A stretch of 53,224 nt of DNA from a virus. Positions 3,731 through 51,024 of the stretch are shown piece by piece (the first letter of the stretch is position 1; each line of letters opens with the position of its first letter). A program made the translations under genes and the position numbers. The stretch spans positions 1-53,224 of the IMG/VR virus record IMGVR_UViG_3300044533_001533. One strand, written 5' to 3'. Under the pieces are notes generated by a model. It did not search any database. It was not told where the DNA came from and was given only the letters and a program-made list of their open reading frames with translations.

Positions 3731-4914
3731 TACGACACACCAACAGAAAATCTAAATTCAACATAGTTGCTAGTATTGGGAGACTTTATAACGGTTTCTT
3801 GATTTTCATTTTTTACAATAGAATACCCCGTTAGTCCATAAAGTGGATTAACTGTTTGAGTATTTTCTAATCTTAAAGCATCTAATGCAATATAATAGTT
3901 ATTAGAAGGAACATTAAACTCTCCACTTTCATCTGTAATAACACAAGCATAAATTTTTATTACAGTTGCTATTTCCCAACTAAAATTTTCTGTTTTGTAT
4001 AAATCTTGTAATTTTTTTGATATTACAAAATATCTATTTTCTTCAAAGTCTGCAAGTGTATTGTACTCTCCTTCTGAATCTGCCAAATTTCCAGAACTTC
4101 CCTGGTTTAGTTCTGCTTCAAACCTTGCATACTGTGCTCCGTCAGGAGAAGAAAACTCAACAAGAATTCTAACTGTTTCAGGTATTGAGGCTGAATTTCC
4201 ATCTCTGTTTACTAAAGAAAACGCTAATTTTAATTCATCGTTTGGAGAGTTTCTTGATAGATCAATGTTGGCTCCTGTTAATCTTATATGATTTGATTCT
4301 GATTCAATTACAAAGTGATCAAGGGTTTCATCGCTTTCAGAACTAAGAGTTAAGTTTGCTTGATCGCCCCTAATTAAAATTACGTTATTTAAAAACCTAC
4401 ACCTTTCATACCTATTTGCACGAGATGGATTAAAGAAAATAGTGTTATCGGCATTTGTTTTAAATACTACACCGTTATTATCAAGAATTATATTGCCAGC
4501 GCCACCATCAAGCGCTTCAGGCTTTGATAGAATTTCTGTCGTTGCAGCGCTAGTAGCATACTGCCAACCTTCTGTTGTTGTAAATGCAAAAATTGTTTTA
4601 CTATCGTAAACTCCAGCAGAAGGATTTGATCCAGCAGAGTATAAACCTATTTCTGATATTTCATATCTTTCTTCTGTTGGTAATTCTGCAGTAAATACAA
4701 TTTTGTCAACACCGTTTTCGTTTACAAATCCTCTAGAAGAGATTGGCACTCTAAACATTTCAAATTCTAAATTCTTTTTTAAAGAAAAATCTGCAGAAGT
4801 ATCGTTAGTATCTAGTGGTGTTGGTCCACATCCAATTGCAATATATGACGCATATGCTGGAGCCTGGCCAAGCAAATATTTGCCAATAATATTTTTCCCA
4901 ATACTGGTTATCAT
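3730..4914 (-). CDS. Baseplate/tail-fibre attachment-like minor tail protein
   Basis: This 394-residue protein begins like phage tail-fibre attachment proteins: a short helix (MITSIGKNIIGKYLLGQ), a strand with the motif AYASYIAIGCGP, then ELPTEERYEISEIGLYS around residues 75-95, a pattern common in tail-collar and fibre N-terminal domains. The C-terminal two thirds is beta-rich with a jelly-roll-like appearance and probably a carbohydrate-binding fold. Its start overlaps the previous gene by 4 bp (ATGA). It lies in the tail-tip block and is probably a virion protein; the exact position in the tail is not resolvable. Confidence 0.65.
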   Translation of the reverse strand: MITSIGKNIIGKYLLGQAPAYASYIAIGCGPTPLDTNDTSADFSLKKNLEFEMFRVPISSRGFVNENGVDKIVFTAELPTEERYEISEIGLYSAGSNPSAGVYDSKTIFAFTTTEGWQYATSAATTEILSKPEALDGGAGNIILDNNGVVFKTNADNTIFFNPSRANRYERCRFLNNVILIRGDQANLTLSSESDETLDHFVIESESNHIRLTGANIDLSRNSPNDELKLAFSLVNRDGNSASIPETVRILVEFSSPDGAQYARFEAELNQGSSGNLADSEGEYNTLADFEENRYFVISKKLQDLYKTENFSWEIATVIKIYACVITDESGEFNVPSNNYYIALDALRLENTQTVNPLYGLTGYSIVKNENQETVIKSPNTSNYVEFRFSVGVS

Positions 4915-5420
4915 GATTCATTCCCATCAAATTGCACAATATATATTGTACCACTTGTGCTTAGTTCAACCTCAATTTGCTCATCATTGTTTAAACCTAT
5001 TGCCTCTATAATTAGATCGCCTTGCCCATCAACGTAAACATTTGCATCATTTAATCCATTGCCCTTATTTGGAGTTTTTTCATTAAAATTAATAGAAAAT
5101 CCAGAAAAGTATTGATCTGATGTTTTTTGTAAACCAAGAATGTTATTAGGATTGTACTGTTGCTGTAAGGACTTGATGTTTTTTATTGGTTCATAAGATA
5201 TGTCTTGTCCATTAATTGTGTCATTTCTTGATATGCTTACTAATTCTTGAGCAGAAAGGTCTTCAAAATATAACGTCGCCATTTCGTTTATTAATTGATC
5301 ATTATCTTCAAACAATATAATATCTGGTGTTGCTGCTTTTATATGATTAACATTTGATGTTGACAGTATTTGATTTAAGGTTGCGGGAGTTTGTGGTGTT
5401 GCAGATAAACTAATTGACAT
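4911..5420 (-). CDS. Tail-tip associated protein, unknown fold
   Basis: This 169-residue acidic protein has a helical N-terminal half and a C-terminal region of short strands (NVYVDGQGDLIIEAIG, IEVELSTSGTIYIVQFDG). No family is recognised. It starts 2 nt after the stop of the large tail-tip gene, whose last codons GAG GTA supply a GAGGT ribosome-binding site. Its 3' end overlaps the next gene by 4 bp. Coupling on both sides and position suggest a structural component of the tail tip made in fixed ratio to its neighbours. Confidence 0.6.
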   Translation of the reverse strand: MSISLSATPQTPATLNQILSTSNVNHIKAATPDIILFEDNDQLINEMATLYFEDLSAQELVSISRNDTINGQDISYEPIKNIKSLQQQYNPNNILGLQKTSDQYFSGFSINFNEKTPNKGNGLNDANVYVDGQGDLIIEAIGLNNDEQIEVELSTSGTIYIVQFDGNES

Positions 5421-9740: not shown

Positions 9741-10382
9741 TTAAACCTCTTCCAGAGATACCGAAATATTCCAAAGGTCGTGATTTGTTCCGCCACGTTT
9801 GACAACGCTGTAGTTAAAATCAGAAAAATAAACTTCTACAATTTGATTGTATTTACCTAGGTGTCCAAAAGATGCATCTGTGGTTTCTCCATCAACTGGA
9901 AAATTAGTATATTTATCATATGCTAAATACATCCAAAAAGGACCTTGATGATTTTCATACCAATCTAAAACCTCAACCCCTCCTGCACCACCATCTGCAG
10001 TAAACTCTGAACTTGTTCCTTTATTAGGAGATAGTCCAGTTGAAGCAAAATCTGCTTTGTCAGAATATGCACGGGATGGCAAATTATTCCAAGATACACT
10101 CATAGTAAGTTTATCTGCAATATGATAAGACCTCATCCTACCATTGATAGTTCTTTCTCGTTTTTCAATTCTTTCTGAGTTAAAGGACATGTCTTCTCTG
10201 TTGTGATCTGATAATATTAAAAATTGATTAATACCGCCTGTGGTAAGGCTTGAATTAGCCCCTATTTCTTGTCCAGTTGGCACGTAAAGGCCATTACTCA
10301 GGGTTCCCGCATTCTCTGACCATAGAATTGATTGTGGTCTTTGATACCTCTTTCTACCCGAAATATACGCTGAGGTTGCCAT
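9741..10382 (-). CDS. Distal tail-like (Dit-type) protein
   Basis: This 213-residue protein lies between the tape measure and the large tail-tip gene, the place of the distal tail protein in siphoviruses. It is beta-rich and includes DMSFNSERIEKRERTINGRM, where an N-terminal beta domain would be, plus an insertion of Gly/Thr-rich loops. A similar unnamed protein is common in actinophages at this locus. The start overlaps the tape-measure stop as TAATG, and its last codons form the ribosome-binding site for the next gene's TTG start. Function by synteny: ring joining tube and tip. Confidence 0.7.
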   Translation of the reverse strand: MATSAYISGRKRYQRPQSILWSENAGTLSNGLYVPTGQEIGANSSLTTGGINQFLILSDHNREDMSFNSERIEKRERTINGRMRSYHIADKLTMSVSWNNLPSRAYSDKADFASTGLSPNKGTSSEFTADGGAGGVEVLDWYENHQGPFWMYLAYDKYTNFPVDGETTDASFGHLGKYNQIVEVYFSDFNYSVVKRGGTNHDLWNISVSLEEV

Positions 10383-13300
10383 TATTTTTGCCCCTTAATT
10401 CTTTGATTGTCTATTCGTCTAATTTGTGTCATAACGGTCTTTGCAATATCGTCGGGACTTGAATCAGATTTAACATTAACATTTAGACTATAATTATACA
10501 CTGAAGACCCTCCGTATGAGCCATCATTTATTTTATTAAGATTATTTACTCCAAATGAATCAACGGCATTTCTACGAACAACAAACTCTCCAGGAGTAAG
10601 CATTGCTGGAATTGTATCAGTACCCCTTGAGTATCCTCCAGAAACATAGTATTTAGGAATTATACCGCCCATTGCTCTTGCACGATAAGAAACCGTTGGT
10701 GTTGCTGCAGCAGAAAATGACGACAAAGGATTGTAAGAAGTTTTTGTAGGTGGGATTATTGTATATCCACCACCTCTTGGACCAGATGCGCTTGCTGTTG
10801 ATGCTGGCTTTGGCACTATTGTTGGCATAACTGGTGTTGGTCCATAAAGACCACCAGACAACCCCTGATTGTATGCAGTGTTTGTGTTGGTAGGAGGTTT
10901 TGATATAGGAGTTTTTTGCAAATCTTTCATAATGTTTGTTAAGTCTGCAAGTTGTGCTCTGCTTTCTGCAAGAGAGTCGTTATTTTCTTTTGTTATTCTT
11001 GCTACTTTTTCTGCATCTGTTTCTGCTGCTGGATTAGCAAATGTTAAAAGTGATGCAGCGCCTAACTCTTTGCTTGTAATTCCATCCCACAACGCTTTCA
11101 TTCTTTTAAGCGTGTCTTCGTGACCACGTAAAACTGCTTGATACTCTACACCCCGAACTCTTGCACCGTCTACCCCTAAAGCCACAGCCTCCCACTTTGC
11201 TCGTTGTGCCTCAATTGCATCAAGTTCTGCTTGAAGTTTAGCCTGTAATGGTAATATTGATAATTTGTTTATATTATAATTTGCATCTTGTAATCTTAAA
11301 ATTTCAGCAGAAACTTTAAGTGAGTCTTGATCAAGTGCATAAACTTTTTCAGAAATTGTATAAAGTTTTTCTTCAATTTGTACTCTTGTTAACCCGTTAG
11401 TGTTTGTTAGTTTGCCAATTTCTTTTTCTCTTGCAACTTGTAATAAGTTTGAATTTCTTTCTTTTGCTTTTCTTGCTTCTTCTGCTCTTTGTTGTTGTAT
11501 TGCCTTTGCTGCAGCAGAAAGGTCTCCTCTTGTTAATGCATCGGCAATTGTAATTCTTGATGACTCCTTAGCAGCAATATCATCAGTAATATCTGATATT
11601 TGTTGAAGGGCCTTTTCTTGTGCATCATATTTTTTATTGATTGACTCTGCAGCCTTATCAATTAATGACAGGTCATGATTTAAGATTGTTGACTGTGCAT
11701 TAAGCAGTGCTATTGGTCTATCGTAATTTTCTTCCATTAGTCGTTGTTGTATATCAATTAATTTTTCATTAGCATCAATTAATTTATTTGCAGCATCAAT
11801 TTGTGGCTGATAAATATTTCTTGCTTCTCTTTCAATAACATCAAAATATTCCATTGCCATGCTTACTTCTTTTTTTATCCGTTCTGCAGGATTTATTATA
11901 TCTTGTGTTCTTGTTTGATTTCTTTTAAGTTCTCTTAGTGTAGCAATCATTCTATCAATTTCTTCTTTTGTTTTACCACTTGCAAAAGCAAGGGCAATTT
12001 GCTCATTTGTAACAATTTCTAATGCCTCTGCAGCAGACAGTCCAGCAGCCTTTAAATTTGTGAATGTTGCACTCTGTGCTCTTAGTACTTGAGTCTGACT
12101 TCTAGCATTGTCTTCAAACTCTCCAAGAGTTGCCTCATTTAGTGCCTTTGCTAATTTTTTTCCATCTGCAGTTATTTTAACAATACCGTTTTTAATTGTT
12201 ATAAATTTCTTTTGAATTGCTGGATCTAAATCAGATATAAAATCAATAAGTTCTTGGTTTATCCCTTGCGCTCTAAGTTGTTGATTAATTCCTTTAAATA
12301 TTTTAATGTCTCCGCCTGAAGAATTCATTACTCTTCTTAGTTCGTCAATTCCGCCACGGGCATTGACTGATGCATCCCTTACTAACTTTAATCTTTTAAG
12401 TAGTTCATCTAAAGTTGTATCTCTTTCTCCTGAGCCAGGAGTTGCCCCCTTATTTGTTCCTTTTTCTATTGCTGCGTTAAAACCTTTTGCTAAGTATGCT
12501 GCTATAGCATCTTGTTCTGACATACCTTTAAATTCAGCAAGTGCTGCTGCTCTAATTTGTGGATCTACTTTTCCAACTAAATAATTAACAAGCAATGTTT
12601 TATTTATAAGTGGTTTACCTTCAGATAATTTATCAAAATTAGTTAAGGCATCTGCAAATAATGTTGGATTTTCACCAGCAAGTTTTTGAACAACTGTTTT
12701 ATCTATTTTATCTGGCAGTATTGAAATTTTTGATAATGCATCATTTGCAACTGTTAATTGTTTTACTCCATTAGTAGTAAGGTCTAGTTGAACTCCATAC
12801 TTTTGTTGAAATTTTGCAAGAATATCTAATGCGGTCATGTCTTTATCAAAGGCAACTTCGTTAGTGTTTATATAATTAAGCATTAAGTCAATTGTTTTTG
12901 CATTTGTACCAGTCTGCGTTATTAACTCAAGAAGTGTGCTTGCCCCTGCAAAACCTTCTTTTCCTACAACCGTATTTATTTTTGCTTGAATTTCTGGAAC
13001 TTGTTTGGATGCATCTAAAAGAGCAATTACCGCATTTGGACTTAACTCTCCAGAAGCAAAACCAATCTGTATGACCTTTTTAAAATCTGTATTTGCAAGA
13101 TCATTTAATTCATCTTTAGCAATATCTTTAAACACTTTAATGGCATCTGAAGCATTTTTGTATAAATTATCGATAGATGTTCCAATTGCTTTGTCAAAAT
13201 TTTCTGTAGATATTTGACCTGATAATTTAATAACATCGTTTATCGTTTGTTGATTTGCATTATTTAAACTATCTAAACCAATTTTTCTTTGATCTTCAAT

Positions 13301-16300
13301 ATCTTTAATTTCTTTTTCAGTTTTTGCATTTTTAAGTTTTAAATCATATTGTTGATTTAATGCATCTACAAGTTGTTGATTTTGAACAATTGCTTCAAGT
13401 CCTAGTTGAATGCTTGCAGCATCAAGTTTTGCATTTGCTTGCTGAACTTTATTTAAATCAAATGCTGATTTAGTTAATAATGCAATTGATGCGGCTAAAG
13501 CAATTGGGGCGCCAAGACCTCCAGTTCCAGCCGTAACTGCGCCTGCTCCTAAAAGAATACCAGCAATTCCCTGTGCAGCGGTTCCAGCACTTACTTGTTT
13601 TCTATTGTTTTGTGCCTGATCAAATGCTGTTTGTAAGTTTGTTGCAGAATCTTTTTTAATTGCTAATGCAATTTGAAGTGGATCTTTAGTTAAATTTTCG
13701 CCATTTATACCAAATAAAGATACAAGTTCTCCACTAATCATTAATGGTATTTCATAACTGCCTAGTTTTTCTCCTAATGCTGAAGCAATACTCTTTGCTT
13801 GTTCTGTTGTAACTACTCCCTGCAATATTGCAGTTGATAATTGATTTGCCATATTTGTTGCAATTTCTTTATCTGTTTTTCCTGCTTTTCCTTGAGTAGC
13901 AATATCTGCAATTAAACTTTTTCCAAATTCACTTTCTAAAACATTTTGTCCAAATTTTCTTTGTTGGTCAACAGTTCCAGAAATAAGGTTTTGTCTTTTT
14001 CGATCTGCAGACTCTTTTGATGAAACTGTTCCAGTAATTTTTGATAACTCAATTAATTTAGTGTTGGTCATTGACATAGCCTTAGCAAGATTTATGCCTT
14101 CTTGTCTAGCCTTTTCCATATCTTTATTAAACTTATAAATTACTGCGGTAATAGAAACTAGCCCTGCAACAAATAATCCAAGTGGATTAGTAAGCATAGG
14201 GGCAATACTTGCAAGAGCAGAGACACCCATCATCGCCATACCCACGCTATTGTTACCAGTCATGAATCCTGCCATTGCTCCAATACCCGCAATTCCAGCA
14301 ACAGGGCCAGCAACCGATCCAACTCTTTGTGCTCTTTGTGCTCTTACTTCACGTTTTTGTTCTTTTAATTGTTGTTTGGTTAATGGGGCTGCCTGTGTAG
14401 CAAGTTTGTTTTTGTCTTCAATTGTTTTTAATTCTTGTTTTAATGCAACAAGTCTTCTTTGCTCTACCTTTTCAATTTGACGCCTTAATGATTTTTGTTC
14501 AGAACGGAATTGTTTCTCTATTGCTGAAATAGCCATTCCTGGTGATGTTCTAGCATCAATTTTTGGAGCATCTGATAGCCCTGCAACTTTTGGTGTTGGT
14601 CCAAATTTTCCAAATTTACGAACACTTGCTACTTGTGCTGGATTAAGATTTGTAACTCTGTTGTCAAGAGATGGATTTTTAGTTGGCGTTCTGCTACTTC
14701 TTGGTTCTGTGTTTTGAGAACTAAATTGAGTAAAGCCTTTATTATTAAGAATTCCTTCTTTGTTTTGCATAACGGCATATGTTTTTTTATTTACAAAACT
14801 TGGCTTGTCTCCAAGTTTAATAATTGATCGTGAAATTTCTTTCCAAATTTGTGGAGTTCTTACTGCCGATACACCAAGAATACCTTTTGCTTGATAAATC
14901 TTTGAAATATTTACTTTGCCTGAATTGTGTGCTTTAACTTCAAGATCTGCTATTCTTGCAAGGTGTCCTAATTGTTTTGCATTTGTTGGTTGTTTTTCTT
15001 GTTGTGCAAAAGCATAACTTTGTTTTAATTTTGAAATATCTCTATCTGTATATCCTAGTTCTTTTAATATTCTAGGATCATTAATAAGTTTTCCAACAGA
15101 TTTTTTACCAGCACGGTTTAAATATTGACCAATGCCTTCATGATCAGAAATTGTAAGCCCACTTTGCCATTTAGTTTTTGGATCTAATGGTTTAAATATA
15201 TGGGATTCTGATTTCTTTCCCATAAATTTGTTAATTTCATTTGTTGTCAAACCCTGTTTTCTTAGTTCTTTAGTAAGAGCAAGGTTTTCTCTATCTAAAC
15301 CAAGTCCAGCAGTTTTTTGATTGTATTTTTGTCTTAATTCTCTTACTTCTCGTGGAGCACCACTTCCTGCTTTTCCAAGTCTACCAATATATCTATTAAG
15401 TGTTTCTGGAATAGTTTTTCTCGTAGACATCGTTCCATATTGGCTAGGTGCTTCTTTAAAGGCATATTTTATTTGACGGTCAAGTTGTTCTTTAGTAAAA
15501 GTAGATTGTATAATACCTTTTTTATCACTGTAAATATATTTTCCAGATTTTTCATCATAGGTAATTCTTGAAAGAAGTTCTTGGAATCCTTCTCTGTTCT
15601 TTTTGTATGCTTGTTGTGCTTCAGTATCTACTCCTAAGTTGCGGCCATACTTTAACTCTATTTCTTTTTGCAATGTTTGATTTGGTGTTCCTGAAGTTTT
15701 TCCACTTAGTGCTTGTAAAACAGAAGAGTCTTCTCTATTATATTGTGCTTGTTGTCCTGCTCTTACTCCAGCAACCATGTTTGCACCGCCACCAGTACCT
15801 GCTGTTTTTTCTCTTATTCTGTTGATTGCTTCATCTAGGTTGGTGCCTGCGGGTAAGGATCTAAACCTTCCAGCCCCAGTAGTTCCATCATCAAATGCTT
15901 GTAGTTTTCCATTGACCATTGCATCAATGATTGGCTGGAATCTTGGATCTTGTGCTACGTCAGTTGGGATTACCGCTTCTCCAGGCATTAATACTGCTGG
16001 TACGTTATCCTTATTTCCTGTTCCTGGAACATAGGTTGACCCCCTTGCAAACTTTTTAGGAGTAAACCTTCCACCTGGCATCATCATACCTGGATTTGCC
16101 ATAGCAAATCTTGTTGCTGCTACGGTTGCATCAATATAGGCTTGACGTAATAATCTAACTGCCGTTGTTTCTACTGCAAATGATTGCGTTAGGCGTGTAT
16201 GAGCCTGATTTAAAGATGCCGCTACTGTGGCTGCTTCTAGTTGTTCGCTATTTAAATAACTTGTTTGTTGGGCAAGAAGGTTTGTATTTGTCCCAGCCCT

Positions 16301-18052
16301 TAAAAATCCAGAACGCATTGTTATAAATAGTTTTATTATGTTTGCAACACCGTTGGCAAGTAAGCCAAAAGTCATTAATAGCACTGGTCCAATAACTCCA
16401 ACAAGGGTTGATGCTACAACAATAAACTTCTTAGTGCCCTCACCAAGATTATCAAACTTGTCTAATAGCCTACCAACTACTTGAACAATTGGTGTAACTG
16501 CTTCTAAAAATGTTTTTCCTATCGGCGCTATAGCAACCTTAAGTTTTTCTATTGACTCTTTAAAATTAGTTCCAACAGCATCTTCTAAAACACCTAATTC
16601 TCGTTCAGATAATATTGCAAGTTCTTCAATTGAAGCCCCCGCAAGATTTAAAACCCTAGCAGCCTGAGTTCCTTCTTTTGTTACGTTTTGAAATAAAGTT
16701 GATAGTCTTGAAAATTGAAACTTACCAAATAGTTGTTCAATAGCACGAGCACGGTTTAGAGGATCAAGAGTATCTAATGCCTTAGAAAAATCAATTACTG
16801 TGTTTCTTATGTTTCCTTTATTAGTTTCAACAATTGCATTAATGTTTACCCCAAGTTTTCCAAGAAATGCTGCTGCCTTGTCTGATGGATTAATTAAAGA
16901 GGCAAGACCTGATTTAAGGGCGTTAGCACCTTCTGATGCATTAATACCACCTTCTTTCATTGCTGTTAAGAAAAATGCTAGATCTTCAACAGATCCACCA
17001 AGTTGTTTTACTACTGGTCCTGCTTTAGGAATTGCTTCTGTTAAATCTTCAATAGATACTACAGTTTGGTTTTCAACTGCGTTAAGAAAATTAATTTTAC
17101 TTGCTAAATCTTCTGCTGCTACACCAAAAGCATTTGTTACTGATATTGTTGTTTCTAATGCTTGTGCTTGCTCTACTCCGCCAAGAACTGCAAGGCGAGT
17201 TGCTTGTGCTACTTGGGCTGTAAGTTCTGCCCCTGTTTTACCCATTGCTGCGGCATTAGCAGCCATTTCCATAGTTTCTGTAACTGCAACACCATATTTT
17301 GTAAATTCTTTGGCAAGTTGTTCTACATCAGCCAAAGCCTTATTGGTCTGGTCAGTTGTTGTAAACATATCTCCATAAACACGTTTAAACCTAATGGCTT
17401 GTTTTTCAAGATCCATAAATGTTTTAGCAGCGGCGGTACCAAAATAAGCAAGGGGAATTGTAAAGCCAACCATAAGTTGACGTCCTGCCCACTGTGTATT
17501 CTTACCAAAATTTAAAAGGTTAGTAGATCCCTGTTTTAATAGTTGATTTAACAATGCTTGTTTTTGTGCTGCTACTGCTAATTTTGTAGAGTAGTCTTTC
17601 ATGTTTAAAGTGTTTGGAGTTATTGAAATTGCTTTCATTGCTCCAGAAGCATCACGACCCATCTTGATATACTGGGTCTGCATCTTCTTAACACGCTCTT
17701 CGGCCACCTTGCCAATTGTGTTAAATTCTTGTTTAAATAATCTGCCAAATGTTTTTGTAGATCCGCCTGCATAACGGAAATACTCACGCATAGAGAGTTT
17801 ATTTGTCTCCAGTGCGTGAGTAAATGATTCTGTTGAGGTTCTTACTAACCCCATTTGTGCACGGAATTTACCCGTTGCATTTATTGAATTTAAAAGATTG
17901 GTCTGCAAGCCTTTTTGAGCGGCTGCTGCGGCAGCGCTACTTTTTGCTACAGATGAATGGAAGGTTGCTAATTGACGTTGGAGATTTTTAAGTTCTGCCA
18001 GTGCCGCCGACGTATCAATATGTACGCCAATATTAGCATTTACATCAGCCAT
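10382..18052 (-). CDS. Tape measure protein
   Basis: At 2,556 residues this is the largest gene. The N-terminus is coiled coil. A TP901-like tape-measure core spans about 240-400 (AVTETMEMAANAAAMGK, AFFLTAMKEGGINASEGANA). Hydrophobic helices follow near 535-570, 1245-1307 and 1490-1530, able to enter the host membrane at ejection. Two Gly-rich loop motifs, VPAVLMPGEAVIP (about 685) and TIPAMLTPGEFVV (about 2480), are typical of actinophage tape measures. Residues about 760-1140 form a polar, Lys/Gln-rich insertion without the usual heptads. At about 1.5 A per residue the tail could be up to 380 nm if all residues are extended; the insertion probably lowers this. SD GAGGTG precedes ATG 18052. 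Confidence 0.95.
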   Translation of the reverse strand: MADVNANIGVHIDTSAALAELKNLQRQLATFHSSVAKSSAAAAAAQKGLQTNLLNSINATGKFRAQMGLVRTSTESFTHALETNKLSMREYFRYAGGSTKTFGRLFKQEFNTIGKVAEERVKKMQTQYIKMGRDASGAMKAISITPNTLNMKDYSTKLAVAAQKQALLNQLLKQGSTNLLNFGKNTQWAGRQLMVGFTIPLAYFGTAAAKTFMDLEKQAIRFKRVYGDMFTTTDQTNKALADVEQLAKEFTKYGVAVTETMEMAANAAAMGKTGAELTAQVAQATRLAVLGGVEQAQALETTISVTNAFGVAAEDLASKINFLNAVENQTVVSIEDLTEAIPKAGPVVKQLGGSVEDLAFFLTAMKEGGINASEGANALKSGLASLINPSDKAAAFLGKLGVNINAIVETNKGNIRNTVIDFSKALDTLDPLNRARAIEQLFGKFQFSRLSTLFQNVTKEGTQAARVLNLAGASIEELAILSERELGVLEDAVGTNFKESIEKLKVAIAPIGKTFLEAVTPIVQVVGRLLDKFDNLGEGTKKFIVVASTLVGVIGPVLLMTFGLLANGVANIIKLFITMRSGFLRAGTNTNLLAQQTSYLNSEQLEAATVAASLNQAHTRLTQSFAVETTAVRLLRQAYIDATVAATRFAMANPGMMMPGGRFTPKKFARGSTYVPGTGNKDNVPAVLMPGEAVIPTDVAQDPRFQPIIDAMVNGKLQAFDDGTTGAGRFRSLPAGTNLDEAINRIREKTAGTGGGANMVAGVRAGQQAQYNREDSSVLQALSGKTSGTPNQTLQKEIELKYGRNLGVDTEAQQAYKKNREGFQELLSRITYDEKSGKYIYSDKKGIIQSTFTKEQLDRQIKYAFKEAPSQYGTMSTRKTIPETLNRYIGRLGKAGSGAPREVRELRQKYNQKTAGLGLDRENLALTKELRKQGLTTNEINKFMGKKSESHIFKPLDPKTKWQSGLTISDHEGIGQYLNRAGKKSVGKLINDPRILKELGYTDRDISKLKQSYAFAQQEKQPTNAKQLGHLARIADLEVKAHNSGKVNISKIYQAKGILGVSAVRTPQIWKEISRSIIKLGDKPSFVNKKTYAVMQNKEGILNNKGFTQFSSQNTEPRSSRTPTKNPSLDNRVTNLNPAQVASVRKFGKFGPTPKVAGLSDAPKIDARTSPGMAISAIEKQFRSEQKSLRRQIEKVEQRRLVALKQELKTIEDKNKLATQAAPLTKQQLKEQKREVRAQRAQRVGSVAGPVAGIAGIGAMAGFMTGNNSVGMAMMGVSALASIAPMLTNPLGLFVAGLVSITAVIYKFNKDMEKARQEGINLAKAMSMTNTKLIELSKITGTVSSKESADRKRQNLISGTVDQQRKFGQNVLESEFGKSLIADIATQGKAGKTDKEIATNMANQLSTAILQGVVTTEQAKSIASALGEKLGSYEIPLMISGELVSLFGINGENLTKDPLQIALAIKKDSATNLQTAFDQAQNNRKQVSAGTAAQGIAGILLGAGAVTAGTGGLGAPIALAASIALLTKSAFDLNKVQQANAKLDAASIQLGLEAIVQNQQLVDALNQQYDLKLKNAKTEKEIKDIEDQRKIGLDSLNNANQQTINDVIKLSGQISTENFDKAIGTSIDNLYKNASDAIKVFKDIAKDELNDLANTDFKKVIQIGFASGELSPNAVIALLDASKQVPEIQAKINTVVGKEGFAGASTLLELITQTGTNAKTIDLMLNYINTNEVAFDKDMTALDILAKFQQKYGVQLDLTTNGVKQLTVANDALSKISILPDKIDKTVVQKLAGENPTLFADALTNFDKLSEGKPLINKTLLVNYLVGKVDPQIRAAALAEFKGMSEQDAIAAYLAKGFNAAIEKGTNKGATPGSGERDTTLDELLKRLKLVRDASVNARGGIDELRRVMNSSGGDIKIFKGINQQLRAQGINQELIDFISDLDPAIQKKFITIKNGIVKITADGKKLAKALNEATLGEFEDNARSQTQVLRAQSATFTNLKAAGLSAAEALEIVTNEQIALAFASGKTKEEIDRMIATLRELKRNQTRTQDIINPAERIKKEVSMAMEYFDVIEREARNIYQPQIDAANKLIDANEKLIDIQQRLMEENYDRPIALLNAQSTILNHDLSLIDKAAESINKKYDAQEKALQQISDITDDIAAKESSRITIADALTRGDLSAAAKAIQQQRAEEARKAKERNSNLLQVAREKEIGKLTNTNGLTRVQIEEKLYTISEKVYALDQDSLKVSAEILRLQDANYNINKLSILPLQAKLQAELDAIEAQRAKWEAVALGVDGARVRGVEYQAVLRGHEDTLKRMKALWDGITSKELGAASLLTFANPAAETDAEKVARITKENNDSLAESRAQLADLTNIMKDLQKTPISKPPTNTNTAYNQGLSGGLYGPTPVMPTIVPKPASTASASGPRGGGYTIIPPTKTSYNPLSSFSAAATPTVSYRARAMGGIIPKYYVSGGYSRGTDTIPAMLTPGEFVVRRNAVDSFGVNNLNKINDGSYGGSSVYNYSLNVNVKSDSSPDDIAKTVMTQIRRIDNQRIKGQK

Positions 18053-18074: not shown

Positions 18075-18407
18075 TTAGTTGTTTGCAAGCACTGTATTTA
18101 AAAGAGCGTTTGCATCTGCTAGTTTAACTCCAGAAGCGGCTTCAATAATTTTATAAACTGTTGGAAGGTCTAAGACCTCTTCTAGTTTACTAATATCTTT
18201 AGACAGGTCTGGATTGTACTGCTCCATAGCAATTTGTACGCACTCAATAAGAAGAGTCATTGACTTATCGTTATCTTCTGCTACCCCTGCTACCTGCTCA
18301 AACTTTTTCATAAATGGACGAAGCAGAGAAATCTTAAGTGAGCGTACCTTAATTTTTGTGCCGTCCATGAGAACAAGTTCTTCACCCTCGTGTACTGTTG
18401 TTGCCAT
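18075..18407 (-). CDS. Tail assembly chaperone, short paralogue (gpG-like)
   Basis: This 110-residue protein is a single copy of the chaperone N-domain. It aligns with the start of the neighbouring 231-residue gene: shared MATT start, DGT(K/E)(I/L), LKI..LR.FM, LIECV.I.M.QY.P, and DLPTVYK(I/V)(I/L)(E/D)AA(S/A)G(V/I)K. In most siphoviruses the short form (gpG) and long form (gpGT) come from one gene by frameshifting; here they are separate genes. It is expected to coat the tape measure during tail assembly. SD AGGAGG lies before ATG 18407, and an extended -10 box sits 29 nt upstream of the start, so it can be expressed independently of the long form. Confidence 0.85.
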   Translation of the reverse strand: MATTVHEGEELVLMDGTKIKVRSLKISLLRPFMKKFEQVAGVAEDNDKSMTLLIECVQIAMEQYNPDLSKDISKLEEVLDLPTVYKIIEAASGVKLADANALLNTVLANN

Positions 18408-18436
18408 TTGTGTATCCTCCTATATAGGCTATGTCA

Positions 18437-18445
18437 ATTATAGCA
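18437..18445 (-). promoter_or_regulatory. Extended -10 promoter box (TGCTATAAT)
   Basis: TGCTATAAT lies in the 46 bp gap between the two chaperone genes and should drive the short chaperone and the tape measure. The expected leader, about 20 nt, contains AGGAGG. No clear -35 element is visible. Confidence 0.55.
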
Positions 18446-18453
18446 TAGGGAAG

Positions 18454-19149
18454 TTATTTTGTTAGATCTTCGTAATCCAAACCCATACCTATACCAAACC
18501 CTGCTTTCTGTGCATTAGGTCCTTGTAATGCTAAAATATCGTTGCCGTCAACAGTTTTTCCTTTGCTAAAAACTCTTGCTTTCATATCTTCCCATTCCCT
18601 TTGACCTTTATCTTTATTTGATTCTTTGTCTAGGTCTACCCCCTGAATTGCAGCCAAGAATTTTTTTTCTGTATAGTCTAATTCTCTAATTACCTCTAGG
18701 GTTGCCATTAACTCTGGCATTGATAAAGAAGTTTCTAACTCTTGGTAGTCTTTCCAAATACCGAGCAAAAATACCTCTGCTTCTAGTTTTGCAAGGTCTA
18801 GGGTTTCCCAGGTTTGACCACTACCAATTGCTTGATCCTTTACTGGCTCTTCTAACTTTTTATTAATCTTAATGCCAGCAGCGGCATCTAGTACTTTATA
18901 TACGGTGGGCATATCTATACTGTCCTCAACATCCTTAACAGTACCTGAAATTTTAGGATAGTATTGTTTCATACAGATTCTAACACATTCTATTAATATA
19001 CCAATTGCGTCATCATCATTTTTTGTGTTTTTAATATTATTAAATGTCAACATGAACTCACGAAGATATTTTATTTTTAATGGTATTATTTCTAATTCTG
19101 TCCCATCAAATAAATAGACTATATCACTTTTATATATTGTAGTTGCCAT
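18454..19149 (-). CDS. Tail assembly chaperone, long paralogue (gpGT-like)
   Basis: This 231-residue protein consists of the same N-domain as the short chaperone (about 1-100) fused in frame to a C-terminal extension (about 115-231) with LDLAKLEAEVFLLGIWKDY and ELDYTEKKFLAAIQGVDLD. I recognise this extension as the tape-measure-recruiting T-like part of actinophage and Gram-positive phage chaperones. No frameshift is needed to make it. The start codon is 8 nt after a TGATAGAAT box with no ribosome-binding site, so the message is probably leaderless. It is separated from the major tail gene by an intrinsic terminator, so the chaperone is kept at a lower level than the tube protein. Confidence 0.85.
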   Translation of the reverse strand: MATTIYKSDIVYLFDGTELEIIPLKIKYLREFMLTFNNIKNTKNDDDAIGILIECVRICMKQYYPKISGTVKDVEDSIDMPTVYKVLDAAAGIKINKKLEEPVKDQAIGSGQTWETLDLAKLEAEVFLLGIWKDYQELETSLSMPELMATLEVIRELDYTEKKFLAAIQGVDLDKESNKDKGQREWEDMKARVFSKGKTVDGNDILALQGPNAQKAGFGIGMGLDYEDLTK

Positions 19150-19157
19150 AGAATTCT

Positions 19158-19166
19158 ATTCTATCA
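19158..19166 (-). promoter_or_regulatory. Extended -10 promoter box (TGATAGAAT), leaderless
   Basis: TGATAGAAT ends 8 nt before ATG 19149, and there is no Shine-Dalgarno in between. The box lies just after the terminator of the tail tube gene, which supports a restart of transcription here. The hexamer differs from TATAAT at one position. Confidence 0.45.
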
Positions 19167-19173
19167 CAAACAC

Positions 19174-19203
19174 AACAAAAAACCCACCTCCGAAGAAGTG
19201 GGT
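19174..19203 (-). terminator. Rho-independent terminator after the major tail gene
   Basis: On the minus strand a stem of ACCCAC/GTGGGT, extended by further pairs around a TTCG tetraloop, is followed by TTTTTTGTTGTG. It sits 23 bp downstream of the major tail protein stop. This is the strongest minus-strand terminator in the window and should set the tube-to-chaperone ratio. Confidence 0.88.
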
Positions 19204-19225: not shown

Positions 19226-19858
19226 TTATGATTGACCGTATGTGCGATCTACGATTTTACCGTAAGATCCTGATGTATCTTCTGGCAATAAACGGAATGA
19301 TACTTCAAACATTGAAGCCTCATCACGCTTTGCTGATACAGTTACGTTTTCAATTGACAAAGCACGGTATGCTGTGTAAACTCTTTCAACATCGGCTGCA
19401 GTTGCTGGGTTTCCAGTTCCTGGGCCAACAGCAACTAATCCTCGCTCCAATGGAACTTCTCCAATGTCGCCAGCAGAAAGATTTAATGTTCTTCCTGTAG
19501 ATGCTGCCTTGTTTCCTGAAATTTCGTCATCAGAATACGCTAGAGCAAGAAGCAAGTTTTCTAAAGTTGCTTCGGCAAAGGCTGTTGCAAGATTTACCTG
19601 CATACCTTGCTTAAATAGTCTAGCAACGTCAAGAACCTGATCTACCTGGACTTCACCGAAATCTGGTTGGAACTGTAATTCAAGACCGTTCATTGTATAA
19701 CCTACGTTAGTGTAGTCTGCTTCATCTGTAAGTGTATCCTTAAAAGACTCACTTGCATCAAATGTTTCCAGTGTTGCTGGAGTTAAAGTTGTGTCAGCAA
19801 TAAAAAGTGCTGCTGCACCAACGATAATGTTGTTCGACGTACCACGGCTATATGGCAT
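19226..19858 (-). CDS. Major tail (tube) protein
   Basis: This 210-residue protein has the composition and order of siphoviral tube proteins: an N-terminal arm (MPYSRGTSNNIIVGAAALFI), a beta-sandwich core (VGYTMNGLELQFQPDFGEVQ, SASMFEVSFRLLPEDTS-like strands) and a central helix (LATAFAEATLENLLLALAYS). Its place between the tail terminator and the chaperones supports the call. It has its own extended -10 promoter about 60 bp upstream, a GAGGT ribosome-binding site and a strong terminator after the stop, so it forms a single-gene high-expression unit within the morphogenesis block. Confidence 0.9.
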   Translation of the reverse strand: MPYSRGTSNNIIVGAAALFIADTTLTPATLETFDASESFKDTLTDEADYTNVGYTMNGLELQFQPDFGEVQVDQVLDVARLFKQGMQVNLATAFAEATLENLLLALAYSDDEISGNKAASTGRTLNLSAGDIGEVPLERGLVAVGPGTGNPATAADVERVYTAYRALSIENVTVSAKRDEASMFEVSFRLLPEDTSGSYGKIVDRTYGQS

Positions 19859-31276: not shown

Positions 31277-33310
31277 CTAGTATAATTTAATTTCGCAAGC
31301 GTCTGTTGAGCAATACTTTTCAGACTCTGCGTCAAGATTATCCTTGCCATCATAGATAGCGGACCAATCAATTTTACCAATTTTTCCAACGTAAGAGTTA
31401 TATTCTTCTCTTGTAATATTTGTATATGGTTGTTGAGGATAAGTTTTATTACCCATCGGCAGAAATGAAACTGCCTTTAATTGACCTTCATACATGTGTA
31501 ATGCTGGAGCAATATGCTTAGTCTCAGATTCCTTGTCAAATGATAAAGTTACAGATACTCCATTGTCAGACCAATACTTTTGAGCGGTAGCAGCCAAACC
31601 AATCTTTTCAAAAAGACTTACATCTTTTTCAGAACGAGGATGTCCAGATGCTACTGGGAAATATACTACTGAAGTGTTTGCAGATACTACGTCATCTTCA
31701 ATTTTATACCCTGCCGCTTTAAATAAATGCACCATTGGATCTGTATTGCCAAACCTTATAGCACGAAGATAGAATTCTCCTCCTGGACCCCAATGAACTC
31801 CTGGTGTTGCACCAGATAATAGGGAAACAGATCCTGAAGGTTTGACGGTAGTTACACGAATTGACTCACGTACACATAGCCATTCTGAGTATGAGTGATC
31901 GTATGCACGAATCTTTTTATACCCTTCGTCCATCCACTCACGAATTACTGGCATACCTTTTGTGTCTGCAAATGATGCAATACCAGTTAGAGATGTTCCA
32001 ATACGACGATTACGTTGCATAATTCCATTTGTGGTTTGCCAATGTGTTGGCATAAGTGTAACGGTCTTACCATATAGATATGCAAACTTTAGTGTACGAA
32101 GAAAATCTTCTTTGTCTTCATGACGGTTTAAATGAACTTCTACAAGTGTGCATAACTCATAACTTTCTAATGGTTGTTCAGCGCAAGGATTAAATCCCAT
32201 AACACGAGAATCTTTATAGTCTGCAGGATCTGCTAGTCTTCCATAATCTCTAGCAACGTCTAGCCAAATAAATCCTGGCTCACCATTGTCTGCAATTAAA
32301 TTAACATAGTCTTCATATTTTGTTCCAACCTCTGCAGCAATAGAATTATTAGACATCCATGCCCATCCTGGATTTTCTGAATCAAATGAGTTTCTGTCTG
32401 GAAAAACCTCTGCATTTTTTAAATTAATAAAATCTTTGTCTTCTGGTAATCCTAAAGCCAAGGTAGCAGAACGACGAACATTTCCAGAAACAACACATGT
32501 ACCAATAAGGTTAACAATATCTACAATTGCACGAGAATCAAGTTTTTCTCCTGCTCTACCGCCGATTACTGCGTCTATCTTGTTATGTAGTGCAATGAGT
32601 GGTGCTGGACCGCTAGCAACCCCTCCAAAGCCTTTTATAGGGGCACCTAGAGGACGGATAAGGTCGTAGTTAAACTTTTGTATAGCCTGATTAGGACGTA
32701 GGTATGAGTTTAATAACATTCTTACAGAGTCTACCCAACCTTCACGAGTATCTGGAATTTCCCATACATTTTCTGGCTCTGTAGGAGCATTAATAGTGAT
32801 TTCTTTGTCTTGACCGACGGTATCAAAACCTACACCTATACCTAACATTAAAGCATCCATAACCCAAGCAAACAATGCTCCTGGATCATTACGATCAATA
32901 TCACGAGTAGACACCATTGCACAGTTTTGTAGAGAAGCAGAGTTGCGCTTTTCCATAGTCATAGGAGTTCCAAATGCCCAAAGACCTCTACCTGGCGGAG
33001 TCCATTTTAAATTAAACATACGGTCATATGCTTCTTGAGCAGATTTTTGACTCTTGTTATCGTTCCACGGTAGACGATTATCTTTAGCGTGGTTTTTTTG
33101 TACTGAGTACATTCCTTCAATTACCCGCTTACAAACCTCATGCCATCTTTCTTTTGTTCCGTCTTCTTTCATACGAGAGTATGTGCGTATAAACGTAATT
33201 TCTCCTAATGAATTAGAGCCTGCGTCTGAGAATCCAAAGGGTGCAGGAGTTAATGAGTACTTTGTTACAAAGTCCTCTGATAGACGAAATGAGAATACGC
33301 TTTCTGACAT
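31277..33310 (-). CDS. nrdJ: Adenosylcobalamin-dependent (class II) ribonucleotide reductase
   Basis: This 677-residue protein reduces ribonucleotides to deoxyribonucleotides using coenzyme B12. It matches the monomeric class II enzyme (Lactobacillus leichmannii type, 739 residues). Visible active-site elements are Cys130 (LQNCAM), the signature NPCAEQPLESYELC with Asn374, Cys376 (thiyl radical), Glu378 and Cys387, and the C-terminal redox pair Cys667/Cys672 (CSTDACEIKLY). All catalytic residues are present, so it is probably active. It requires a B12-producing or B12-importing host. It is the only nucleotide-metabolism gene in the window and lies among structural genes. AAAGG precedes ATG 33310, with a TGATATACT promoter box about 60 nt upstream. 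Confidence 0.95.
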   Translation of the reverse strand: MSESVFSFRLSEDFVTKYSLTPAPFGFSDAGSNSLGEITFIRTYSRMKEDGTKERWHEVCKRVIEGMYSVQKNHAKDNRLPWNDNKSQKSAQEAYDRMFNLKWTPPGRGLWAFGTPMTMEKRNSASLQNCAMVSTRDIDRNDPGALFAWVMDALMLGIGVGFDTVGQDKEITINAPTEPENVWEIPDTREGWVDSVRMLLNSYLRPNQAIQKFNYDLIRPLGAPIKGFGGVASGPAPLIALHNKIDAVIGGRAGEKLDSRAIVDIVNLIGTCVVSGNVRRSATLALGLPEDKDFINLKNAEVFPDRNSFDSENPGWAWMSNNSIAAEVGTKYEDYVNLIADNGEPGFIWLDVARDYGRLADPADYKDSRVMGFNPCAEQPLESYELCTLVEVHLNRHEDKEDFLRTLKFAYLYGKTVTLMPTHWQTTNGIMQRNRRIGTSLTGIASFADTKGMPVIREWMDEGYKKIRAYDHSYSEWLCVRESIRVTTVKPSGSVSLLSGATPGVHWGPGGEFYLRAIRFGNTDPMVHLFKAAGYKIEDDVVSANTSVVYFPVASGHPRSEKDVSLFEKIGLAATAQKYWSDNGVSVTLSFDKESETKHIAPALHMYEGQLKAVSFLPMGNKTYPQQPYTNITREEYNSYVGKIGKIDWSAIYDGKDNLDAESEKYCSTDACEIKLY

Positions 33311-37240: not shown

Positions 37241-38055
37241 TAGTTTCTCCAAAATTCTTGACCAGAATATTTATTTATTACATATTCAGATAATAGTTCT
37301 TGTTTATTTATATTTCGACGGGATATAGAAGATCTTACATCATGTTGTCCTATAAGTCCATAGACATTATCATCTTCTTTAATGTTGTTTGCTATATTTG
37401 AATAATCATGGGTAAATCTTTCAATACCGTAAAAATCATAAATCTTGTTAATTTCTTCTTCTGGATTTGCTATTAAATCATCGTATTCTACAAAATGGAA
37501 ATACTTTCTGTTGTCTGGATGCATTGCAAATGCTATACCATATAAGCAGTTATCAATAATGCCTTTTGGTCTCATTAAACTATCACACCTAATATCATCT
37601 GCTGGACGGTAAAAATTAAATTCCTGTCTTGTCTGTATTTCAGAATCAATAAAATTATTTTTATTTGGATTTTTCTTAACTAGACTTATAAATGATGCAA
37701 GGATATCTGTTATTCCTCTTATTGGTAGTATTATTTTTGGTTCATATCCAAGATTTCTTTGCAATACCCCGAAATGTTCAGGCATTGACCATTCTCTTGA
37801 TTTATCAATAATGATAGGTTTATTTGTATCAGAGTAGTATCCTTCTAATACCCCCATAATTGTATTTGGCATTACTACAGGTTTGGGATATGCAGAGTAT
37901 TGTTCTGATGCCAAAATACTACGTTCTAAATTAAATATCATTCCACACATAGGTGAATTTGCTGATGAATAAATATCAGGATTTTGATTTAATATAGATG
38001 ATATTAGAGTACTACCAGATCTTGGAAGACCTGCCATAAAATAAAAATTTTTCAT
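37240..38055 (-). CDS. Sulfotransferase (PAPS-dependent)
   Basis: This 271-residue protein has the 5'-phosphosulfate-binding loop near the N-terminus (FYFMAGLPRSGSTLISSIL, residues 4-22) and a later strand-helix ILPIRGITDILASFISLV that corresponds to the 3'-phosphate-binding motif. The layout fits the sulfotransferase family that moves sulfate from PAPS to sugars or proteins. It is the first gene of a cassette with three glycosyltransferases, so a sulfated glycan is a reasonable product (inference). No signal peptide or membrane segment is seen, so it acts in the host cytoplasm. It has its own TGCTATAAT promoter and a GGGGGT ribosome-binding site. Confidence 0.85.
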   Translation of the reverse strand: MKNFYFMAGLPRSGSTLISSILNQNPDIYSSANSPMCGMIFNLERSILASEQYSAYPKPVVMPNTIMGVLEGYYSDTNKPIIIDKSREWSMPEHFGVLQRNLGYEPKIILPIRGITDILASFISLVKKNPNKNNFIDSEIQTRQEFNFYRPADDIRCDSLMRPKGIIDNCLYGIAFAMHPDNRKYFHFVEYDDLIANPEEEINKIYDFYGIERFTHDYSNIANNIKEDDNVYGLIGQHDVRSSISRRNINKQELLSEYVINKYSGQEFWRN

Positions 38056-38102: not shown

Positions 38103-41100
38103 TTATGCAAGTTCAATATCAGTTAAATTATAATTAGATATTGGTAATGTCAATGCTTGAGTAGTCCATGTAGCACCATCAGTTGATACATATATGCCTA
38201 GGTTTTCATTTACTGTTGAGGTATTTATGTCTCCTGATCCTGAAATTGCTGTCCATAGGTTGTTGCCATAGGCTACTGAAAATATATCATTTACAAAGTT
38301 TAAGGTTTTGGTAGTCCAGGTTACTCCATCGGTTGAAGTTCTTAGGGCTCCAAAATTGCCACCTGCTACCCAAATACTGTTTCCGTAGGCTATTGATCGT
38401 ATAGTTCCACTTCCAAAGTTTGAAGTTTGTGTGGTCCAGGTTGTGCCATCTGTTGAGGTACGGAGTGTGCCTGAAATTCCACCTGCTATCCAGAGGTTAT
38501 TTCCGTAGGCTACTGATATTATACGTGTAGTTCCAAAGTTAGAGGTGCGTGTAGTCCAGGTTATGGCATCGGTTGAGGTGCGCAATTGGCCTCCATCCCC
38601 ACCTGCTATCCAAAGGCTGTTGCCGTAGGCTGCTGACCATATAGTGGTATTTCCAAAGTTAGAGGTTTGGGTAGTCCAGGTAGTGCCGTCTGTTGAGGTA
38701 CGGAGTTGTCCTGTATAGCCAGTTGCTACCCAAAGGCTGTTGCCGTAGGCTACTCTTTGTATTTGTGTATTTCCAAAGTTAGAGGTGCGTGTGGTCCAGG
38801 TTGTTCCATCCGTTGAGGTACGTAACTGGCCTGTATTTCCACCTGCTATCCAAAGATTGTTTCCGTAGTCTACTGAGTTTATCTGTGTATTACCAAAGTT
38901 AGAGGTGCGTGTGGTCCAGGTTGTTCCGTTTGTTGATGTACGGACTTGTCCTGAACCACCACCTGCTACCCACAGGTTATTGCCGTAGGCTACTGATGTT
39001 ATAAAAGTATTGCCAAAGTTGGAGGTTTGTGTTACCCATCTATTTGGTGTTTTTCCATCTACATATATTGAATAAGTGTTATTATAAGAATTTACTTTTT
39101 CTACCCAACCCAAAACTCCTGTTCTAGTTGAGGCATATGTAGAATTTGATGTATTAAATGTATAAAATATTCCTTGATCTGATGCTAATATATCTGTGTT
39201 TATTGATGTAATAATTGGTGATATTGATGGGGTGTAGGAAATTCGTAGTTGTCCTGCCTCACCACCTATTGCCCATAGGTTGTTGCCGTAGGCTACTGAG
39301 TTTATAACGGTACTTCCAAAGTTAGAGGTTTGGGTAGTCCAGGTTATGGCATCTATTGAGGTACGTAACTGGCCTGCATCTCCAACTATTGCCCAAAGGT
39401 TGTTAGCGTAGGCTACTGAGTTTATAGTTGTAGCACCAAAGTTAGAGGTGCGGGTGGTCCAAGTTATTGCATCAGTTGAGGTGCGGAGATTGCCTGCCTC
39501 ACCACCTGCTACCCAGAGGTTGTTGCCGTAGATTATTTTGTTTATAAGTGAAGCACCAAAGTTTGAGGTTTGGGTGGTCCACGTTATAGCGTCTGTTGAG
39601 GTGCGGAGTTGTCCTGAATATCCACCTGCTATCCAAAGGCTATTACTATAGACTGCTGTGCGTATACCTGAAGTTCCAAAGTTTGAGGTTTGGGTGGTCC
39701 ATGTTATTGTATCTGTTGAGGTACGGAGTTGTCCTGAACCACCAACTGCTACCCAGAGGTTATTTCCGTAGGCTATTTCGTTTATAAGTGAAGCACCAAA
39801 GTTTGAGGTTCTGGTAGTCCATGTTATTGCATCTGTTGAGGTGCGTAGTTGGCCATTAGCCCCTCCTATTACCCAAAGGTTGTTGTTATGGGCTAATGCA
39901 AATATACTGTCAACAGCAGAAAAGTTAGAGGTTTGGGTAGTCCATGTTATTGCATCTGTTGAGGTGCGTAGTGTGCTAAAGATTCCACTTGCTACCCACA
40001 GGTTATTGCCGTAGGCTATGTCTCTTATAGCAAGGTTTCCAGAAATATTTGAAGTTTGAGTAGTCCATTGCAAATTTTGAATGGTATATGAAATTAAATT
40101 ATTACTAGTAACAAAATTATTATCTGCTATTAATCCAAATGCTGTATTTCCAAATGCAGATATTGACTTTATATTGTTGAATAATGGTGTTACGGTTGAG
40201 GTGCGGACTTGGCCTGCACTACCGCCTGCTACCCAAAGGCTGTTGCCGTAGGCTACTGATTGTATACGTGTATTTCCAAAGTTAGAGGTTTGGGTATCCC
40301 AGGTTGTGCCATCTGTTGAGGTACGGAGTGTGCCTGTGTAGCCAACTGCTATCCATAGGCTGTTGGCGTAGGCTATTGACTCTATGCGTGTAGTTCCAAA
40401 GTTGGAGGTGCGTGTGGCCCAGGTTATGGCATCTGTTGAGGTACGAATTCGGCCATATACTCCACCTGCTACCCAAAGGTTGTTGCCATAGGCTACTGAG
40501 AATATAGTTGTTCCAAAGTTGGAGGTGCGGGTGGCCCAGGTTATGGCATCTGTTGAGGTACGTATTTGGCTTCCAGTACCACCTGCTACCCACAGGTTAT
40601 TGCCGTAGGCTATTGCATATATATTTGAGGTTCCAAAGTTGGAGGTTTGGGTGGTCCAAGTTGTGCCATCGGTTGAGGTGCGGATTTGTCCTGTATAGCC
40701 GCCTGCTACCCAAAGGCTGTTGCCGTAGGCTATTGATTGTATCTCTGTATTACCAAAGTTAGAGGTGCGGGTGGTCCAGGTTATGGCATCTGTTGAGGTG
40801 CGGAGTTGTCCTGTATTACCACCTGCTATCCATAGGCTGTTGGCGTAGGCTACTGATTGTATAAAAGAGGTTCCAAAGTTTGAGGTACGAGTGGTCCAGG
40901 TTATGGCATCTGTTGAGGTACGGAGTGTGCCTGAACTACCACCTACTACCCACAGGTTATTGCCGTAGGCTACTGATGTTATAAAAAAGTTTCCAAAGTT
41001 AGAGGTGCGGGTGGTCCAAAAAATTCCTGCCTGATACAAACTTCTATATTGATTATATTGATCTGTATTTCTATCAGAATATAAAAGAGATCCATTTATA

Positions 41101-49134: not shown

Positions 49135-49656
49135 TTAAGCAAGTCCATTTTTTAATGCCCCCCATGTTCCGTTGCCCTTTGGTTGACCAACAATCAATAT
49201 TCCAGTAGTTGCATTAGATTTTGCTACTACTGCTACCGCTCCAGAACCAGTTGCTGGTTGTGTTGCTGTTAATCCTCCACCATCTGCTACATAAAGAACA
49301 TTGCCAGCAGTAAATGAATTTGTATTTGCATCAAGGATTACACCAGAAATAGTAACAACGCCATCTGTATTATTTCCAATTGCAGAACTTGTTAGTCCTA
49401 ATACTGGAAATGTGGCAATGTTATCAGAGTCACATTTTCCTATTGTTGTTTTTGTATTAAATCCAGTAACAAAAACTGGTGTTGCTTTTGCAATACTTGC
49501 ACCACTTACATTTCTAACCTCTATTGTATGATTTACAAGATCAGGAAGAATTAATTCAATTTGTTCCGCTAAGTCTTGCAAATCTTCATGAATGTTTACT
49601 GGATCGCTAGAAAGCGGAAAGGGAATATCATAATTTGCGGTTGCACCAGTAGCCAT
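49135..49656 (-). CDS. Fibre/baseplate protein with capsule-like beta domain
   Basis: This protein has 173 residues. The N-terminus (MATGATANYDIPFPLSSDPV, then NIHEDLQDLAEQIELILPDL) is a helical attachment or trimerisation segment often seen in phage fibre-associated proteins. The remainder (IEVRNVSGASIAKATPVFVT, FPVLGLTSSAIGNNTDGVVT, AGNVLYVADGGGLTATQPA) is a domain frequently found at the end of virion fibres. ATG 49656 lies 9 nt from a TGGTATAAT box and lacks a ribosome-binding site. It is the first gene of the fibre block on the minus strand. Confidence 0.7.
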   Translation of the reverse strand: MATGATANYDIPFPLSSDPVNIHEDLQDLAEQIELILPDLVNHTIEVRNVSGASIAKATPVFVTGFNTKTTIGKCDSDNIATFPVLGLTSSAIGNNTDGVVTISGVILDANTNSFTAGNVLYVADGGGLTATQPATGSGAVAVVAKSNATTGILIVGQPKGNGTWGALKNGLA

Positions 49657-50433: not shown

Positions 50434-51024
50434 CTATTCGTGTTTTTTAATACTTGCTCTAATTTCTTTTTCAAATATATTATATTTAGTAGGAATCCAA
50501 AAAGACGGAGTTGTGTATCTTACGCCTTTAGTTATTTCACGCACACCATGTATGTACATAGTATTTGATGGGAAAAAAACTAATGTTCCAGCCTTGGGCT
50601 TAAACTCTAGTTTGTGATCTGGAAAATATATTTCTCCACCTTCATAGTCATCATTTAAATATATAACAGCCCCATAATCAACTATAAATGCTTCATTTGG
50701 ATGCCCCTCTGGATCTTCTCCATCTGCATGTAATGGTTGATACTCTCCTACATCCCATCTTCTTATTCCAGCAGAATTAGTTTCAAGTGGTCTGCCAAAA
50801 TGAAACTCAATCTCTTTTTGTACCCTATTAATTGCATTTAATAAAATTTTATGAATCTCTGGTTTTTCTTTATGAAGTTTTTCTGTAACTTTGTCTGGTA
50901 TGCCAGCCATTGAATTAGATCCCCAAGAAATTGAATCATCAATTGAAGATAAAATCAAGTCTAAGTCTTCTTTAGAAATAAAGTTTTCTTTAATAACTAT
51001 ATTTTTTGTTGATCCTATTTTCAT
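50434..51024 (-). CDS. 2-oxoglutarate/Fe(II) oxygenase, prolyl 4-hydroxylase-like (1)
   Basis: This 196-residue protein has a double-stranded beta-helix of the P4H type. Iron ligands are His99 and Asp101 (PLHADG) and His159 (YIHGVRE); Arg169 (VRYTTPSFW) should bind the 2-oxoglutarate carboxylate. The block AVIYLNDDYEGGEIYFPDHK and the GTLVFFPSN turn are diagnostic. It likely hydroxylates a protein side chain (Pro or similar) in the cytoplasm; the substrate is unknown. SD AAGGAG overlaps the stop of the 52-residue gene upstream. It is the last gene of a run of five, next to the bidirectional terminator. Confidence 0.88.
   Translation of the reverse strand: MKIGSTKNIVIKENFISKEDLDLILSSIDDSISWGSNSMAGIPDKVTEKLHKEKPEIHKILLNAINRVQKEIEFHFGRPLETNSAGIRRWDVGEYQPLHADGEDPEGHPNEAFIVDYGAVIYLNDDYEGGEIYFPDHKLEFKPKAGTLVFFPSNTMYIHGVREITKGVRYTTPSFWIPTKYNIFEKEIRASIKKHE

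Follow-up and report, generated by a model that had tools for sequence, protein, structure and literature searches.

Frameshifting in G/GT genes is a textbook example of conserved recoding, and its persistence has been attributed to the fixed ratio that it gives between two assembly chaperones. The locus considered here raises the question of how such a pair of products may be supplied by two separate genes. The window, that is, the whole analysed stretch of 53,224 nucleotides (positions 1 to 53,224 of the IMG/VR record IMGVR_UViG_3300044533_001533), contains a long gene (18454..19149, minus strand) and a short gene downstream of it (18075..18407, minus strand), both starting with ATG. The long gene, assigned from the ORF list, PHROG matches and the survey of relatives, encodes a candidate tail assembly chaperone of 231 aa, in which an N domain (approximately residues 1-98) and a T domain (approximately residues 109-231) are fused in frame. 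The short gene, assigned from the ORF list, homology and a PHROG match, encodes a candidate chaperone of 110 aa consisting of the N domain only. When the short protein was searched against the window's own record, it aligned with the first 96 residues of the long one (42% identity, E 5e-24). The original prediction of two tandem paralogous genes for 231 and 110 residues, homologous over about 100 residues, is thus confirmed, and the minus strand can be added to it.

In profile searches, the N domain of each protein scores against PHROG 10504 (E 4e-21 and 5e-21), as does the C-terminal region of the long one against PHROG 10474 (E 3e-15). These profiles, which represent chaperones of Stanwilliamsviridae, are matched throughout the family: PHROG 10504 by 59 out of 59 N domains, and both profiles by all 47 long proteins. 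None of the curated chaperone profiles searched with this family exceeded its own cut-off. The chaperone models of Pfam and NCBIfam reached E-values of only about 0.05, and the chaperone families PHROG 1932 and PHROG 344 are matched by one member each with E only about 1e-3. A sequence search of the PDB with the chaperone proteins gave no match among solved structures. Gene order and the way relatives are annotated are the grounds for the putative identity of both genes as tail assembly chaperones.

The upstream neighbour of the pair is a gene of an Ig-domain family resembling the major tail protein (19226..19858, minus strand; PHROG 2175, E 1.7e-32; PHROG 885, major tail protein, E 0.008). 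The downstream neighbour encodes a tape measure protein of 2556 aa (10382..18052, minus strand; PHROG 10030, E 4e-100; Pfam PhageMin_Tail, E 1.8e-26) and begins 22 nt downstream of the short gene. The neighbours fit a tail module, and the position between them is that expected of the gpG/gpGT type. Elsewhere in the window, a 1731-aa protein with kelch-like repeats (38106-43298, minus strand) adjoins tail-fibre-like genes, and a ribonucleotide reductase of the B12-dependent type, a sulfotransferase and a 2OG-Fe(II) oxygenase are encoded at 31280-33310, 37243-38055 and 50437-51024, respectively (all minus strand).

Matches among deposited phages come from Stanwilliamsviridae, which infect Streptomyces; the long protein additionally matches three Rhodococcus phages. 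In the Streptomyces phages, the long protein spans two deposited genes lying between the Ig-domain tail protein and the tape measure gene. Both are named tail assembly chaperone in several records, and the second one is in the -1 frame of the first. In the records of Patelgo and NiceHouse the long product is deposited as a joined, frameshifted one. Judging by these nearest named relatives, the host of the phage is presumably an actinobacterium.

Scans of IMG/VR yielded several hundred related loci, of which 401 were fetched and classified by profiles. In 276 loci an in-frame N-T gene is followed by a separate N gene (duplicated loci), in 109 loci N is followed by T in another frame (frameshift loci), and 16 loci are broken or cut by contig ends; none of the 401 mixes the two states. 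Since the tandem pair is present in 276 relatives, it is neither a chance arrangement nor an assembly artefact. As the IMG/VR loci are redundant, counts are given below for unique loci, obtained by keeping each protein set once (146 duplicated loci and 73 frameshift ones), or for a further reduced nonredundant set (47 duplicated and 30 frameshift). Two extra, unrelated genes lie between the long and short genes of locus L310 (4732-5346 and 5339-5803), which makes it all the more evident that the pair are distinct genes. In the duplicated locus L052, a change of frame within T interrupts the long gene (4215-4971), either through a sequencing error or because the gene is broken. In bacterial and archaeal genomes 113 pattern matches were found and no relative was confirmed; for bacteria this agrees with a virulent lifestyle. 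Searches of the open-access literature revealed no description of siphoviruses whose chaperone genes are duplicated and free of frameshifting.

In all 73 unique frameshift loci the T part is in the -1 frame, which is open for 104-134 codons, and the junction contains a heptamer: CCCAAAC in 48 loci, CCCAAAT in 16 (together 64 loci with C CCA AAY) and CCCGGAA in nine. Separate initiation of T in these loci was considered and rejected, as the combination of a start codon and a Shine-Dalgarno box occurs in none of the 73. The heptamer CCCGGAA is carried by loci L083, L084, L087 and L168-L174, which are of the Boydwoodruffvirinae type, all other frameshift loci having C CCA AAY; as far as the named members show, this non-canonical site is confined to Boydwoodruffvirinae. 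By its name, the pattern 'threetwotwo' in the motif list of PRFect fits CCCGGAA (PMC10885494).

The T part of the long gene is homologous to the -1 frame ORF of the frameshift relatives, and the products are of similar size: six written-out frameshift products have 214-233 aa, most in-frame long proteins have 225-241 aa, and the junctions are alike. Thus the gpG/gpGT-type product set is present in the form of two genes sharing the N domain, the longer one with a C-terminal T. However, a long form made by frameshifting, which is characteristic of that type, was not found: T is in frame, and neither gene has a slip heptamer at the junction in any of the 146 unique duplicated loci. In the short gene of the window, T GCA AAC (18109..18115, minus strand) occupies the place where the frameshift relatives have C CCA AAC. 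The string CCCAAA occurs in four duplicated loci, always away from the junction. Other slip sites in the duplicated genes, such as the scattered canonical heptamer T TTA AAT/AAC at nt 305 of 24 out of 146 short genes, were rejected as functional candidates, being subclade-specific and not yielding the classical product set.

The start regions of the two genes differ. In the window, a terminator-like hairpin with a T run (19172..19203, minus strand) separates the long gene from the tail protein gene upstream of it. This hairpin is followed by the extended -10 box TGATAGAAT (19158..19166, minus strand), which ends 8 nt before the ATG of the long gene and is predicted to be a promoter of leaderless mRNA. 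The short gene has a predicted promoter with the extended -10 box TGCTATAAT (18437..18445, minus strand) and the -35-like sequence CTAACA (18465-18460, minus strand), and the Shine-Dalgarno box AGGAGGA (18415..18421, minus strand). Both layouts are conserved. A terminator-like hairpin directly precedes the long gene in all 47 nonredundant duplicated loci, versus 4.5 in shuffles. It precedes the N gene in 26 out of 30 frameshift loci and separates the long and short genes in just three loci out of 47. None of the 146 long genes has a Shine-Dalgarno box (mean duplex energy -2.5), whereas the short genes have a strong one (mean -10.1 kcal/mol), and in 145 out of 146 loci that of the short gene is the stronger. 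A -10-like box ends 5-9 nt before the ATG in 143 out of 146 long genes and in none of the short genes. The stricter pattern TANAAT occurs at this interval in 33 out of 47 nonredundant long genes, versus 0.4 in shuffled sequence. The short genes have a -10 box at 18-36 nt (about 25) upstream in 144 out of 146 cases, usually as the extended TGNTANAAT, and the same holds for all 73 frameshift N genes. Thus it is the short gene that holds the ancestral start region, whereas the long gene probably has its own promoter and a leaderless transcript. The phage uses this device elsewhere: an extended -10 box ending 6-9 nt before the ATG, together with no clear Shine-Dalgarno box, is found in no fewer than three further genes (47946-48392, 48673-49119 and 49135-49656 of the window, minus strand), and leaderless expression may be general in it.

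Because the start regions of the two genes differ in this way, the ratio of their products is probably set by initiation and not by recoding. The short form should exceed the long one, since it has its own promoter, a strong Shine-Dalgarno box and a probable run-on from the long gene. On the other hand, leaderless mRNAs can be efficiently translated in actinobacteria, and hence a low long-to-short ratio is not certain. The initial suggestion that the ratio is set by transcription agrees with the separate conserved promoters. However, it is too narrow, as translation initiation, leaderless for the long gene and led by a Shine-Dalgarno box for the short one, has to be added. Another possibility is that the pair functions as chaperones, but with a ratio that depends on protein stability or mRNA processing, the leaderless layout being incidental. 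Leaderless mRNA might be translated either weakly or strongly in the host, and the layout is shared with three other genes of the window. However, the start-signal contrast described above is almost the same throughout the 146 loci, and we consider this explanation unlikely.

Both copies are under purifying selection, with median dN/dS of 0.15 for the short gene, 0.14 for the N part and 0.09 for the T part of the long gene. In the unrooted N-domain tree of the 47 duplicated and 30 frameshift loci, the N domains of the long form constitute one group (100/100) on a long branch, the short proteins constitute another (93/99), and the frameshift N domains group with the short proteins. The N domain of the long form has also diverged faster than the short protein. 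This, together with its long branch and the identity of just 42% between the two N domains, could mean that the short gene has acquired a new role, for instance that of a dedicated tape-measure chaperone that does not co-assemble with the long protein, so that the system would no longer be of the gpG/gpGT type. This seems improbable, as the short gene always accompanies the long one, adjoins the tape measure gene, and retains the start region and most of the sequence of the frameshift N genes.

The direction of the change can be read from the T domain. In the tree rooted on NiceHouse, the branch of this outgroup being long, the duplicated clade (100/96) is nested inside the frameshift loci, adjacent to a metagenomic frameshift clade (94/97). 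The simplest reading, suggested by this nesting, is that the duplicated state arose once, by duplication and in-frame fusion from a frameshift ancestor. The tree built for the adjacent tail protein is weakly supported and neither confirms nor contradicts it. The opposite scenario, in which the duplication predates the split and the long gene later disappeared from the frameshift phages, which went back to frameshifting, would agree with the unrooted N-domain tree, where long, short and frameshift N domains form three groups with the latter two together. However, besides the nesting under a root that is itself a frameshift locus, this scenario is at odds with the bootstrap T trees, of which 0% unite the frameshift loci. 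It also requires the same junction heptamer to be regained in several lineages, which is implausible. Frameshifting also occurs widely among other long-tailed phages (PMC5009743). An ancestral duplicated state thus appears very improbable. Since sister lineages have T in the -1 frame with a heptamer, versus an in-frame fusion without a heptamer and a separate N gene, the claim that two paralogous genes here replace a frameshift is supported. On these comparative grounds the original interpretation as a whole is largely supported.

That the long gene still yields the short product by frameshifting or internal starts, with the short gene as a spare, is scarcely credible: some long genes do have canonical heptamers (e.g. 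A AAA AAG/AAA at nt 482 in 46 out of 146), but these are not conserved across the clade and lie inside N or deep in T, where they cannot end a product after the N domain, the junction being free of heptamers in 146 out of 146 loci, and the short gene is under purifying selection.

From the homology, gene order, lost slip sites, single origin and conserved start regions we infer the expression, ratio and roles of the two chaperones as follows. The ancestor would have had a single N gene and produced both forms through -1 ribosomal frameshifting into T. The N-T reading may then, in one lineage, have become an in-frame upstream gene with a new promoter, while the downstream N gene would have lost T and the slip heptamer and kept its promoter and ribosome site. 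The long form would then be produced from leaderless mRNA started at the promoter abutting its ATG, and the short form from its own promoter and Shine-Dalgarno box, probably also by run-on of the long transcript. The tape measure protein of lambda is bound by many copies of gpG and a few of gpGT (approximately 30:1), T being the part that recruits the major tail protein (PMC5009743). By analogy, the short form, present in abundance, may coat the tape measure protein, and the long form, being rarer, may use T to bring in the major tail protein. We hold with considerable confidence that a short gpG-like and a long gpGT-like siphovirus chaperone, derived from a frameshift ancestor by duplication and balanced by initiation, jointly explain the observations.

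A permanent G-T fusion in TP901-1 gives normal-looking but non-infectious particles (PMC4493119). It follows that a phage with an in-frame fusion has to obtain the N-only form from elsewhere, and here the short gene supplies it. Thus in-frame fusion with a preserved N-only copy may be a route out of programmed frameshifting, consistent with the fusion mutant being non-infectious without free gpG. In this way a siphovirus lineage has probably exchanged frameshifting for duplication and split expression, the ratio being set via transcription and translation initiation. As one homologous locus exists in both forms (146 unique separate-gene sets and 73 with a slip site), the former nested in the latter, it becomes testable whether the frameshift as such matters or the ratio alone. 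For those Streptomyces phage genomes whose records list the T ORF as a gene of its own, the natural N-T fusion also supports the frameshift reading. What seems new here is that the short gene keeps the ancestral start region, while the long gene has its own, probably leaderless, promoter.

Among known systems, chaperones encoded without frameshifting have a parallel in T4-like phages, which reportedly, according to Vladimirov, Gautam and Davidson in 2022, use a different mechanism. The chaperones in question we take to be T4 gp26 and gp51, which are encoded by separate genes and are similar to each other (E 2e-6). However, unlike the pair in the window, they are divergently oriented and belong to a contractile-tailed phage, and profile comparison of our family with gp26 and gp51 revealed no homology (hhalign probability 0.8% and 1.7%). 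Lambda gpG/gpGT and the chaperones of TP901-1 share with the window an N-only short form and an N+T long form encoded just before the tape measure gene (PMC5009743, PMC4493119), but there both products come from one gene by -1 frameshifting. In gp68/gp69 of the Rhodococcus phage NiceHouse (Trinavirus), the T domain is homologous (E 3e-5) and the N domain shares a short C-terminal motif with the family (hhalign E 1e-4, probability 57%), although the gene is a joined frameshift one with the heptamer G GGA AAA. The closest are Stanwilliamsviridae (Coruscant, Evy, Wofford, BillNye, Faust, Patelgo). They differ from the window in that their only N gene is followed by T in the -1 frame, with the heptamer C CCA AAT or C CCG GAA. 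They have the same PHROG 10504/10474 domains and the same order from the major tail protein to the tape measure gene, and their N gene starts like the short gene of the window, with the same promoter and Shine-Dalgarno layout.
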